Shown here: positions 14,103-53,210 of the stretch, piece by piece
How the letters are laid out: each line of letters starts with the position of its first letter
Numbering within the stretch: the first letter of the stretch is position 1
Origin: Lactobacillaceae bacterium AF64-9pH9TA
GTDB lineage: Bacteria > Bacillota > Bacilli > Lactobacillales > Lactobacillaceae
Direction: 5' to 3'
DNA length: 63,496 nucleotides
Assembly (NCBI GenBank): GCA_027681045.1
Contig: JAQDCK010000009.1
Location: 1-63,496, forward strand
Notes under the pieces: generated by a model
Database searches by the model: none
Told to the model about the DNA's origin: nothing
Seen by the model: the letters and a program-made list of their open reading frames with translations, nothing else
Program-made: the position numbers and the translations under genes

Positions 14103-14231
14103 CTATAAAAAAAGACATGTCAGCGAGTGACATGTCTTAAGTGATGAAATATTAATAATTTGAAAAAATGGAAAAGAAACAGCGAATGAAGCTGGGCAGA
14201 TATCTGGATTAATGTTAATAAATGCGGCCAT
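14103..14231 (-). CDS. 42-residue leader peptide ORF spanning the carAB attenuator
   Basis: A complete minus-strand frame of 42 codons: ATG at 14231, stop TAG at 14105-14103. It is preceded by a good ribosome-binding site, AAAGGAAG, at 14247-14240 with 8-nt spacing, and lies about 25 nt after the predicted transcription start. The peptide begins MAAFININ and ends LTCLFL. It is rich in Ile, Phe, Ser and Asn, with no Arg codon. The frame runs through a U-rich stretch, then through both arms of the terminator, and stops just after its T-run inside the carA ribosome-binding site. A translating ribosome close behind RNA polymerase would melt the hairpin. The layout matches the 44-codon pyrBI leader of enterobacteria. 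Expression is not proven. Confidence 0.6.
   Translation of the reverse strand: MAAFININPDICPASFAVSFPFFQIINISSLKTCHSLTCLFL
14107..14138 (-). terminator. carAB transcription attenuator
   Basis: Arms AAGACATGTCA and TGACATGTCTT (14138-14128 and 14122-14112) form a perfect 11-bp stem with a 5-nt loop. A 7-T tract follows, ending 18 nt before the carA start codon. No PyrR-binding loop, T-box motif or other recognisable sensor was found upstream. Confidence 0.85.
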
Positions 14232-14260
14232 TTTTGCTGCTTCCTTTCTATTTTTTCAAT

Positions 14261-14289
14261 AGTATAAAGGATAGATGCAAGACTTGCAA
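14261..14289 (-). promoter_or_regulatory. Promoter of the carAB leader transcript
   Basis: TTGCAA (14289-14284) and TATACT (14266-14261) with a 17-nt spacer on the minus strand. It places the transcript start near 14254, so the leader ORF lies wholly within the RNA. Confidence 0.6.
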
Positions 14290-35583: not shown

Positions 35584-35825
35584 AAAGAAAAAGCTCCAGA
35601 TTGCCTTAACAATCTGGAGCCCGAAAAATTCAAAATCAAATTCTCACGTCAAATTGCAAGCGCAACGCAGGTACCTTCCCTGCGACAGTCCATGGCCTCT
35701 TAAGTCATAGCCCAGCCAATCCGCCTTGCCAAAACGGACGCTTCGGCAACCTCCCCTTTCTTGCAAGTTCTCCGCCTGGCTGGCTCCCTTGCCTTACTCT
35801 TGTCGGTCGCGCCTCTTCAATTTGT
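35584..35825 (-). promoter_or_regulatory. Lysine riboswitch (L-box) with terminator
   Basis: On the minus strand the aptamer starts CAAATTGAAGAGGCGCGACC and contains the conserved AAGAGTA, GGCGGA, GCCGAAGC and CTGGGCTATGACTTAAGAGG blocks. It closes with CAATTTG (35656-35650) pairing to CAAATTG (35825-35819). A strong terminator, AGCTCCAGATTG/CAATCTGGAGC plus T-run, lies at 35584-35620. Lysine binding should stop transcription of the dap operon. Confidence 0.9.
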
Positions 35826-48666: not shown

Positions 48667-49079
48667 TAATCCATTGCCTGCACTTTCGTTTCAATAAAGT
48701 TGATTTCGTCCTCAGTGAGATTATATTTCTTGTATAGCTGTTGATCAATTTCTGGGATTGACTTTGTCCAGTCAATATAAGAGTTAGGGGTAAAGTCTTG
48801 AAGTGGAACACATCTCCAAGTCGAAGTGGGATTGTGTTGGGTTGTTTTCAAAATTCCCAACATGGTTCTAGCAAATTTTGATTTAATATATTTCAAACAA
48901 GCTTCTGCTTCTTCTTTAGTATTAAATTTTCCAATTCCAATAAATGATTGCGTATAGCCAATAAGTGGCGTGCCAATAAGTGGCGTGCTTAATACTTCAC
49001 CTATTGCACCAGAACCATTAGCCGCTGGAACTAAGACCTTGTACTTGTTAAAGTTCTCACCACTGATATCACTGTTGGT
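48666..49079 (-). pseudogene. C-terminal target-recognition part of an Eco57I-type methylase
   Basis: An open frame enters from about 49079 and ends at 48666, giving about 137 residues. It includes KYKVLVPAANGSGAIGE, TQSFIGIGKFNTKEEAEACLKYIKSKFARTMLG and the ending IPEIDQQLYKKYNLTEDEINFIE, the C-terminal region of Eco57I-like restriction-modification methylases. There is no start or catalytic domain. The homology stops where the tet(W)-carrying element begins. A 15-bp tandem duplication encodes GTPLIGTPLIG. Confidence 0.75.
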
Positions 49080-50280
49080 AGATGGTCAGGGTCTTGGCGG
49101 CCTGTTTCAGATTGTGTATCTTCGCCCATCGTTCATAGCCTTTGCCCTTGCCCTCGGCCATCTTCTGCTCAATGTCCACAAGCCGCTGCACACTGTCCTG
49201 TCTGGGGTCGATTTTCCCTGTCTTTTCGCCCTGTAAGCGGCCTTTCCCGGCGTGTAGGTATTCGGGTATGGCTGCGGTCTGTTCGGCGGCTCTGGCGGCT
49301 TGGTGCTGCGGGGTGTAGCGAACCGTTACGCCCCTCTGGGCGTTCTGCTCCAAAACGGCAAGGACGGCGGTGCGGTCAAAGTCGCCGCCCAGCTTCCGGG
49401 CGGTGATAGGCTTCGTCCTGTCTGGCGTGAGGTAGGACAGCCGCCCCCGGCTCTCCTTGACGGTCACACCCTCCCGCAACAGCAGAGAGGAAAACTCGTC
49501 AAAGCTGGCAGCGGTGGCAAGGGCTTTCCGTAGGGTCTGCCGCAGCTTCTCCTTGTTCGTTTCAAACTTGGTCTGCCGGGGCGTGATACCGCCTGCAATC
49601 ATGGGGGCGTTCTGCTTGTCCAGTGCGGCCTGTCCCTTTTTCTGCGCCCAATATTCCCGGTCTGTGACACGGTTCTTGTTGCCGTTCAAGAGGTCGATTT
49701 GGTAAAGTCCTTCCCGGTGGCACATCTCCATGACCTCGGACTTGAAGTAGCGTAGGGCTGCGTCGGTGCAGCGGTGCTTGCACCCGGCTTTCGTGTCCGC
49801 TTGCCTGTCCATGTAGGGCAGGAACGGCACTTCCTCTATCCGCAGGCTGTTAATGACGATATGCACATGGATGTTGCCGCTGTGGTTATGCCCGTCCGGG
49901 TGGGTGCAGACAAGGGCCTGATGGCCGGGGAAATGCTCTTTACAGAATTGCTCCCCCAACGCCTGCGCCCGGTCTACGGTCAGGCCGTTGTCCGGCCCGT
50001 CCCGTGGGTCAAAGCTGATGATATAGTGGTGGCTTTTCACATCCTCCCGCCGCTGATTTTTCTCATAGCGGAGATTGGAGCGCATACACGCAACGGCAAA
50101 ATCCTCGCCGCCGCAGTTCAGCGTGGACAAGCGATAATCCTCACGGGGGATAAGCCTGCCGTTTTCATCAAGGACGGGCTTCATAGTAAATTCGTCATGC
50201 TCAAAGAGCAGGTATTGTTCGGCGGCTCCGTAGTCGGCGTTCTTAGAGCCTAAATGCTTGAGTGTTGCCAACGGCGTCAC
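49069..50280 (-). CDS. Relaxase/mobilisation protein, C-terminally truncated
   Basis: A 403-residue relaxase N-terminus of the MobA/VirD2 (MOBP-like) type found in Clostridia-associated elements. The metal-binding three-His motif is HNHSGNIHVHIVIN (about residues 131-144). The conserved YEKNQRREDVKSHHYIISFDPRD precedes it. The nicking Tyr is probably the one in NADYGAAEQYL near residue 17. It would nick the transfer origin with MobC. It begins with GTG at 50280 inside the mobC 3' end. The C-terminus ends abruptly at the R-M junction, where its frame runs into host DNA (TIYQQ), so activity may be impaired. Confidence 0.82.
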   Translation of the reverse strand: MTPLATLKHLGSKNADYGAAEQYLLFEHDEFTMKPVLDENGRLIPREDYRLSTLNCGGEDFAVACMRSNLRYEKNQRREDVKSHHYIISFDPRDGPDNGLTVDRAQALGEQFCKEHFPGHQALVCTHPDGHNHSGNIHVHIVINSLRIEEVPFLPYMDRQADTKAGCKHRCTDAALRYFKSEVMEMCHREGLYQIDLLNGNKNRVTDREYWAQKKGQAALDKQNAPMIAGGITPRQTKFETNKEKLRQTLRKALATAASFDEFSSLLLREGVTVKESRGRLSYLTPDRTKPITARKLGGDFDRTAVLAVLEQNAQRGVTVRYTPQHQAARAAEQTAAIPEYLHAGKGRLQGEKTGKIDPRQDSVQRLVDIEQKMAEGKGKGYERWAKIHNLKQAAKTLTIYQQ

Positions 50281-51287: not shown

Positions 51288-53210
51288 CTATTTCTCTATC
51301 TTCTGAAACATATAGCGCACCTTGTCCAGGCGGCTGTTTGGACGGCGGGGCTGGATGACTGGCTTGCCGACAGCGGCCTGATACCCTTTCAGTTCTGTAA
51401 GGCATACGCTCTGCCCGTTGGTGTAAAAGGCCAGATCAGTACGGTATGCCTGTATACAGCGGGCGGGAATCTCGCCAGTAAAGACAACTTCATCCTTTTT
51501 TACCTGGACCGTTTCGATGGTGGCACAGTATTTCGGTGCATCATGATAAGCCCTGGAAAGATATTCCCGGGGCGCATAGAGTGTGAAGGAGAGATAAGGT
51601 TCCAGCAGTTGCGTCCCTGATTCCTTCAATGCCTGTTCCAATACAATCGGGGCCAATGAGCGGAAGTCCGCCGGCGTGCTGACCGGACTGTAATAAAGCC
51701 CGTATTCAAAGCAAATCTTACAGTCCGTTACGTTCCAGCCGAACAAGCCCTGCTCCAGCCCGTAACGGATACCATCCCTGACAGCGTTTTGAAAACTCTG
51801 GTTCAAGTATCCCAGCGAAACCCGGCTCTCGTATTGTACACCGGAGCCAAGCGGGAGTGGTGTAACAGACAGTCCGATGGATGCCCAAAACGGGTTGGGC
51901 GGCACCTCGATATGGATGGTGTGGCTGGCTGCTTTGAGCGGCCGCTCCATATAAATGACGGTGGGTTCCTTTACCACTGTTTCAAGCTTGTATTTTTCCG
52001 ACAGCAAAGCGGAAACAACCTCCAACTGCACCCGGCCCAAAAAAGAAAGAATGATCTCATGGGTGATGGAATCCACCTCGCAGCGCAAAAGCGGGTCAGT
52101 ATCCGCAAGTTGCGTAAGAGCGTCCAGCAGCCGTTCTCTTTGCGCTGCCGTTTTCGGCGCAATCGACGTCCGCAGCATGGGGAGGGGGTCCTCACGCCAC
52201 CTTTTACGAGGGAGCCGGGTTGGGTCCCCTAATACATCGTTTAACCTCACGCTGTCGCTGGGAAGGATAACAATTTCACCCGGATAAGCGGTGTCTGTCC
52301 GAACAATTTCCCCTTTGGATGGAATACGCATCTCTGTGATTTTCAGCTTTTCTCTCCCGGCCAGGGCCACCGTATCCCGCAGGCGCAGCGTTCCGCTGTA
52401 TAGCCGTAGATAGACACGCCGCTGGCCGCAATCTGTATACTCCACCTTGAAAACGCTGCCGCATAGGGCGGCGCTCCCCTGTTCCCCAATCGGTTGGAAC
52501 AGCCCTGTCACCGCATCCATCAACGGTTGAATGCCAAGGCCCTTTTTGGCGCTGCCATAATAGACCGGGAACAGGGAGGCGTCTTGAACCCGCCGCTGTT
52601 CCTCCCGCACAAGTTTTTCCCGGCTGATTGGTTCTCCTGCGATATACTTTTCCAATAATTTATCGTTATTTTCGATGACCGCATCCCATGCTTCTATGTC
52701 GGTATTTTCCTCCAGGACTATTTCCGGGGACAGCGACACCGTCTGCTTGATGATAATATCGGCGGAGAGCTTATCCCGAACAGACTGAACCACGCTCTGC
52801 AAATCAACGCCAGCCTGGTCGATCTTGTTGATAAAGATAACGGTGGGAATGTTCATTTTCCGCAGGGCATGGAACAGAATACGGGTCTGGGCCTGCACGC
52901 CATCTTTAGCGGAGATCACCAAGATGGCCCCATCTAAAACAGCCAAAGAGCGGTACACCTCCGCCAAAAAATCCATGTGGCCGGGCGTATCCACAATGTT
53001 GACTTTACATCTGTGCCACTGGAAGGAAGTGACTGCCGCTTGAATGGTAATCCCACGCTGCCGCTCCAAAAACATGGTGTCCGTCCTCGTTGTCCCTTTT
53101 TCGACGCTCCCCGGTTCTGAAATGGCTCCGCTGGCATATAGCAGGCTCTCCGTCAAGGTCGTCTTTCCAGCGTCTACATGGGCAAGAATTCCAATATTGA
53201 TTATTTTCAT
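51288..53210 (-). CDS. tet(W): Tetracycline resistance ribosomal protection protein Tet(W)
   Basis: A 640-residue GTPase of the EF-G-like ribosomal protection class, which releases tetracycline from the ribosome. GTPase motifs are AHVDAGKTT (residues 10-18), DTPGH (74-78) and NKID (127-130). Sequence across the whole length, from [12 protein letters not shown] to the end [15 protein letters not shown], agrees with Tet(W) as remembered, with scattered substitutions, and clearly differs from Tet(M) and Tet(O). The gene is intact. AGGGAGG precedes ATG 53210, and a leader peptide and attenuator precede that. GC content is higher than in the flanking genes, showing transfer, probably from gut Bacillota or bifidobacteria. 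Confidence 0.96.

Follow-up and report, generated by a model that had tools for sequence, protein, structure and literature searches.

A candidate pyrBI-like, translation-coupled attenuator upstream of the carbamoyl phosphate synthase genes in Bacillota

In Escherichia coli, the pyrimidine-pathway genes pyrBI are preceded by pyrL, a leader open reading frame (ORF) of 44 codons (L274) that extends across an intrinsic terminator, with a U-rich stretch ahead of the hairpin. To our knowledge, pyrimidine control by coupling of polymerase and ribosome is known only from Gram-negative bacteria. Intrinsic terminators also attenuate pyrimidine genes in Bacillota, in a PyrR-dependent manner (RF00515). 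Translation of a short leader controls transcription attenuation at vmlR and tlrB, where NusG-dependent pausing at TTNTTT motifs buys time (PMC9226507, PMC12288461); vmlR acts through ribosome stalling and an antiterminator (PMC9226507). The B. subtilis polymerase is also reported to outrun ribosomes (PMC9226507), so that coupling is not to be assumed in the Bacillota considered here. The locus described below, upstream of carAB, resembles pyrBI by its architecture, with a 42-codon leader ORF reaching an intrinsic terminator, a U-rich stretch before the hairpin, and pyrimidine-pathway genes downstream.

The window, i.e. the whole stretch of DNA analysed, comprises 63,496 nucleotides (positions 1 to 63,496 of contig JAQDCK010000009.1, assembly GCA_027681045.1) from Lactobacillaceae bacterium AF64-9pH9TA. 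Features of the carAB region are collected in Table 1. Direct reading confirmed every element listed in a first-pass annotation: promoter, leader with its Shine-Dalgarno sequence (SD), U-rich stretch, terminator of 11 bp, and a leader stop codon placed within the SD of carA. This TAG lies directly past the T-run, within the AGGAG of the carA SD, an overlap that might allow reinitiation at carA. The terminator sits between the promoter and the pyrimidine-pathway gene carA, as a pyrBI-type attenuator requires, and carB directly follows carA with no leader of its own. Promoters, in the scan of the window taken together, were not above chance (11 found, 12.0 expected), terminator-like sites numbered 16 for 11.1 +/− 3.4 expected, and the U-rich tract of the window was by itself not significant (at most 14 T in 20, p 0.26). 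A TATACT-like −10 was seen by eye at the equivalent position in many relatives. The fold of the leader RNA reached −46.6 kcal/mol, versus −22.6 +/− 3.4 for shuffled sequences (z −7.1), and consisted of two main parts, the terminator and a helix, called P1 below, in which the leader SD region forms 21 pairs with the U-tract (−26.8 kcal/mol, single mismatch at 14249). This helix was absent from the first-pass annotation.

Table 1. Coordinates of the carAB upstream region and genes in the window.
Feature	Position	Strand	Basis or detail
sigma-70-type promoter	14261..14289	−	−35 TTGCAA 14289-14284; −10 TATACT 14266-14261; spacer 17; 9/12 consensus
Helix P1, 5′ arm (probable transcript start and leader SD)	14236..14257	−	pairing, fold; 14257-14236 with 14183-14162
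Leader SD AAAGGA	14247-14242	−	read directly
Leader ORF, 42 codons + TAG, MAAFININPDICPASFAVSFPFFQIINISSLKTCHSLTCLFL	14103..14231	−	ATG 14231; TAG 14105-14103; frame kept up to hairpin in relatives
U-rich tract = helix P1, 3′ arm (GCTGTTTCTTTTCCATTTTTTC)	14162..14183	−	pairing, fold, T count; TTNTTT at 14178-14173 and 14168-14163
Intrinsic terminator	14107..14138	−	11-bp stem 14138-14112, loop 5, T5; T-run to 14107
carA, carbamoyl phosphate synthase small subunit, 358 aa	13012..14088	−	NF009475, TIGR01368; ATG 14088
carB, carbamoyl phosphate synthase large subunit, 1066 aa	9819..13019	−	NF003671, TIGR01369

Elsewhere in the window, on the same strand, are a T-box leader (RF00230, 118 bits, 2009-2224) upstream of a peptide-binding-protein-like ORF (329-1948) and a lysine riboswitch (RF00168, 84.6 bits, 35649-35825) that by eye lies upstream of diaminopimelate/lysine-pathway-like genes (35533-30653). 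An ORF resembling tetracycline-resistance ribosomal protection proteins (51288-53210, minus strand), near a relaxase-like ORF (49069-50280), was also noted by eye. Purine bias, considered as a sign of coupled or uncoupled transcription, was uninformative (0.521 purine in 18 window ORFs).

Relatives of the leader were searched in 43 genomes of the Kandleria family, 41 of which had a carA match at 1e-60 (64-81% identity in 40, 44% in one). A script detected a leader and hairpin before carA in 37 of the 41; L133 has by eye a similar arrangement with an imperfect hairpin, and none was found before carA in L136-L138. The carA genes of G100 and G076 lack the element. Adding the window, L002 and L003 gave a set of 40 leaders, forming 17 clusters at 75% identity, in which start codons were picked manually and with knowledge of the ORF results, mostly between in-frame alternatives. 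Frame 0 was open up to the hairpin in all 40 leaders and all 17 cluster representatives, versus 7 and 3 of the 40 leaders for frames 1 and 2 (2 of 17 representatives each), and 3.4 of 17 expected by chance from shuffled leaders. As judged from these genomes, what is apparently the same switch is present in dozens of gut bacteria.

In 26 of the 40 leaders the first stop codon fell in the hairpin foot (−1), and in 29 it was within −12 to +2. Besides the 26, first stops were 4-8 nt before the foot in 3 leaders and inside the hairpin in 7, and past it in 3 only (window, L002 and L121); in L117 the frame continues into carA. The proposal that the leader translates through its own attenuator thus stands for these last few sequences and falls for L. 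nasalidis and most relatives, whose leaders stop at or in the foot. Reading through the hairpin, as predicted for the window, is an exception and not the conserved arrangement, a point missing from the first-pass annotation. The leaders of the two Sharpea differ by 1 nt at the foot, TAA in one being TAG in the other, and the stop is retained. An E. coli terminator is reported to be nearly fully repressed when a stop codon is close, with full termination beyond ~27-30 nt (PMC4824070); on these data, a stop in the foot is a place from which a ribosome would block the hairpin.

Leader peptides differed among relatives and the U-tract was read in frames 0, 1 and 2, from which we conclude that the nucleotides are kept, not the peptide. 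Of the 10 stem pairs in the consensus of 27 aligned leaders, 4 were changed on both sides. The consensus fold contained the terminator only, because the spacing of P1 is variable. A frame kept to the hairpin while codons vary, the pattern that the first-pass annotation had proposed to look for upstream of carA, supports its suggestion of a pyrBI-like, translation-coupled attenuator outside enterobacteria, and we hold translation-coupled attenuation at the carAB leader to be highly probable.

Outside the Kandleria family, 40 of the 106 carA-matching upstream regions of the order were inspected. In three of these, from other families (L153, L163 and L164), a leader ORF that ends at a terminator differing in sequence was recognised by eye, and pairing of the SD to the preceding 58 nt amounts to −6.5, −11.5 and −15.8 kcal/mol, respectively; most of the others seem to place carA directly 3′ of an upstream gene.

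The stem was then used as a search pattern (ACATATCA-N2-9-TGATATGTYTTTT) over the 43 Kandleria-family genomes, with the reversed pattern as control. It returned 45 sites (46 rows, one being a palindrome) in 36 genomes, the control none. Twenty-nine sites (30 rows) are located at most 80 nt upstream of carA, and the other 16 all precede a gene matching the window CarB with 47-56% identity (tblastn, best segment; in L259 the match begins only at residue 32), so that carA or carB follows at 45 of 45 sites. A leader stands at both genes in 12 genomes, 9 found by pattern and 3 more (L108-L110) in which the carA leader stem is slightly different. In G066, G102, G103, G104 and G106 carB is directly before carA; in the other two-leader genomes it is farther away or on another contig. 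Fourteen carB leaders were analysed closely; all have their first stop between −13 and +9 relative to the foot, and the other frames got that far in 2 of 28 cases. One leader type at both carbamoyl phosphate synthase genes, and by pattern nowhere else, argues that this predicted leader is a dedicated control element of carA and carB. Extension to a wider pyr regulon was rejected, as no such leader was seen by eye upstream of pyrB (30 of 42 genomes with a pyrB match). The Kandleria-family pyrB upstream regions L199, L202, L203 and L206 have in common, by eye, an attenuator-like helix pair, GGGTATAAT...ATTATACC / ACCTCGTTAGAGGT.

Pairing between the leader SD and the U-tract was examined in the 17 representatives by permuting arms between leaders, which preserves the composition of each arm. 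Cognate arms paired at a mean of −15.1 kcal/mol, versus a permutation mean of −12.4; the cognate value was matched by 1 and 3 of 100,000 permutations (two seeds), by 39 of 100,000 without the window, and 322 without the three strongest leaders. With one carB cluster added, the counts were 1 of 100,000 and, without the window, 11; the carB leaders alone, which form 3 independent clusters only, gave z −0.3. Compared with dinucleotide-shuffled tracts, the summed signal was Stouffer z −7.7 over the 17, with only 4 of 17 singly significant (p<0.05), and in L135 the helix was absent. The carA SD pairs with the U-tract at a mean of −8.8 kcal/mol, more weakly than the leader SD in 15 of 17 representatives; in L101 it pairs better. 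When the growing RNA of the 17 representatives was folded at equilibrium, with 12 nt hidden, the leader SD was 48-97% unpaired with the polymerase at +60. In 16 of 17 its unpaired share last fell below half no later than the hairpin foot, the closing point lying within the U-richest 20 nt or shortly after them. We consider it likely that P1 acts as a lock on the leader SD.

An SD open early and closed by the foot is the basis for proposing a race between polymerase and ribosome on the leader, which probably decides whether carAB is read. The leader SD would be free on leaving the RNA polymerase. At low UTP, the polymerase would slow in the U-rich tract, and a ribosome would load and follow it to the stop at the hairpin foot (past it in the window), where it would cover the 5′ arm of the hairpin, and carAB would be transcribed. 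At high UTP, the polymerase would run on and the U-tract would emerge first and pair with the SD; once P1 had closed, no ribosome could load, the terminator would fold and transcription would end. A ribosome on a throw-away ORF would thus prevent folding of an intrinsic terminator, and one U stretch would be brake and lock together. The architecture, the frame, the stop position, the cognate P1 pairing, the repetition at carB and the nesting of the Lactobacillus carA (see below) are seen in the sequences themselves. Taken whole, the reading of this locus as a Bacillota attenuator that is pyrBI-like and translation-coupled, with a U-tract that both brakes the polymerase in response to UTP and locks the leader, seems to us reasonably likely.

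What signal the leader would respond to was approached by elimination. In the window leader, Rfam gave no family at gathering score, and neither PyrR-binding RNA (RF00515) nor a curated T-box or riboswitch family matched; the weak matches (E up to 5) were to snoRNA, miRNA and bacterial sRNA families and to one cis-regulator model (SQ2397), with no PyrR or T-box among them, and all far below gathering scores. These searches, with the codon counts given below, bear out the earlier statement that no PyrR site, T-box or Arg codon run explains the hairpin. Among 10 genomes searched for the PyrR protein, no match over the cut-off was obtained in the 7 named Kandleria-family genomes (best 31-51 bits each), and one was present in 3 of 3 Lactobacillus. 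RF00515 sites at E 0.001 were found in none of 42 of the 43 Kandleria-family genomes (stricter filters, part of the candidates scored). A PyrR-like site of 42.6 bits, below the cut-off, lies just upstream of pyrB in one Kandleria-family genome (L209, G087:C103:97217-97311), and the three Lactobacillus have RF00515 matches below gathering score, just upstream of pyrB in G001 and G069. Given these negative results in the 7 and the 42 genomes, the family is likely to control pyrimidine synthesis by other means, and with no codon signature or known riboswitch either, UTP is the best candidate signal, towards which we lean.

The alternative that survives best is a translation-coupled attenuator reading ribosome supply or initiation rate, not UTP, with a tract that is U-rich only to pair with a purine-rich SD. 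The tract is indeed the 3′ arm of P1, so that its U-richness alone is no proof of UTP sensing. All 40 leaders have 12-16 T per 20 nt in it, and across the 17 representatives it is richer in U than shuffled sequence (Stouffer z 8.5), although SD pairing could cause the same. The number of TTNTTT motifs was not enriched over shuffles (25 versus 21.1, z 0.8), and these motifs were rejected as proof of pausing, which the tract may nevertheless promote. The occurrence of carA or carB behind every hairpin-pattern site points instead to a pyrimidine or arginine signal, and we regard this alternative as unlikely.

A second alternative is that P1 is not an SD lock and serves as a 5′-end stabiliser of the carAB mRNA or as a pause-stabilising duplex. 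In the window, P1 starts at the presumed first base of the transcript, placed by its distance from the −10, and according to a review, pauses last longer when an RNA duplex lies 11-12 nt behind the 3′ end of the RNA (PMC12288461). Against this, the cognate signal survived when the 5′ arm was cut to 20 nt round the SD (1 of 100,000; 5 without the window). We hold this reading to be somewhat less probable still.

The hairpin itself raises a third. Its stem ACATATCA/TGATATGT (14138-14112 and relatives) is kept across carA and carB leaders, before two different genes and well beyond pairing needs, a conservation for which the attenuator model has no need and which would be expected if a protein or small RNA bound the sequence common to both. 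In L126, however, the stem sequence differs and the shape is the same, loop length varies from 3 to 8 nt among kept hairpins, and a hairpin-binding factor leaves the leader frame unexplained; we think such binding improbable. A DNA operator at the hairpin was rejected, since the variation in loop length would break helical phasing.

Amino-acid-sensing attenuation of the trp/his type, for instance by arginine, into which carbamoyl phosphate also feeds, would fit an ORF preceding a terminator and is very improbable, as Arg occurs in 9 of 40 leader peptides and not in the window's (Arg-codon attenuation was rejected on this ground), no run of codons for a regulating amino acid was found kept in relatives, the residues in nearly all leaders besides Met (F 40/40, L 39/40, S 39/40) are those spelled by U-rich codons, and neither the window fold nor the consensus fold showed an antiterminator or other helix competing with the terminator.

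We then considered how the element came to Lactobacillus. The window carA is 97% identical to those of L. delbrueckii DSM 20074 and an uncultured Lactobacillus (L002), 94% to that of L. nasalidis, 71-81% to those of Kandleria, Sharpea, Eggerthia, Massilimicrobiota, Thomasclavelia and Stoquefichus, and 40-45% to the nearest carA of other Lactobacillus genomes having one of that kind. Over 29 carA upstream regions of this last kind, presence of the same leader was rejected: 28 seem continuous with the upstream gene, which by eye we take to be pyrC, and L061 has some other hairpin. In a protein tree of 39 rows (long-branch warnings concern outgroup rows), the four Lactobacillus sequences group together (100/100), are joined by Kandleria and two more Kandleria-family genomes in a group of seven (99/95), and nest with this group inside the rest of the Kandleria family. 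L. delbrueckii has a second carA/carB-like pair, whose small subunit passes NF009475 and fails TIGR01368 and whose neighbours are presumably lspA and rluD, and a pyrB, beside what we read as pyrC, with no carAB adjoining. The nesting, the second pair and the pyrB apart from carAB argue that carAB was acquired, leader included, probably as one unit from a Kandleria-family lineage. The leader is not a feature of Lactobacillus as such, and would have arrived with a carAB of Kandleria-family type. In L. delbrueckii DSM 20074 (L001:1-98) the carAB leader is cut at the 5′ arm of the hairpin by a sequence that is probably the end of an insertion sequence; its terminal 80 bp match 21 places in the genome, many at the first base of a contig.

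Among the open-licence PMC matches listed, none dealt with a leader peptide of carAB in Lactobacillus or Coprobacillaceae. A leader family in about 40 Bacillota genomes makes the question of coupling testable at a defined site, and its frame and stop position make most sense if the ribosome arrives in time. A self-closing UTP sensor, if true, would imply working transcription-translation coupling in a Bacillota lineage; such a sensor would move between families with its gene, and stand separately at carA and carB where each has its own promoter region. We propose tentatively, with slightly less than even confidence, that the carAB leader represents a UTP sensor of a new class in Bacillota, one that would close itself, its U-tract serving as brake and SD seal in a one-shot race.

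As compared with the described systems, the leader shares with vmlR and tlrB the control of attenuation by short leader translation (PMC9226507, PMC12288461), and differs from vmlR in that no antiterminator was seen and the carAB genes are biosynthetic. From the PyrR-dependent attenuators, with which it shares an intrinsic terminator before pyrimidine genes, it is set apart by the lack of an RF00515 match. The SD lock would be an additional step relative to pyrBI, for which the accessible portions of the literature examined make no mention of one. E. coli pyrL too has an 8-bp match between SD and U-tract, but it is no better than shuffles (p 0.85), so that a lock was rejected as a proven part of pyrBI, whereas pairing in the window is far above them (z −6.1). 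Finally, the E. coli leader controls pyrBI and the present one carAB or carB, and the stop, usually in the foot in carAB-type leaders, lies 44 nt past it in pyrL.
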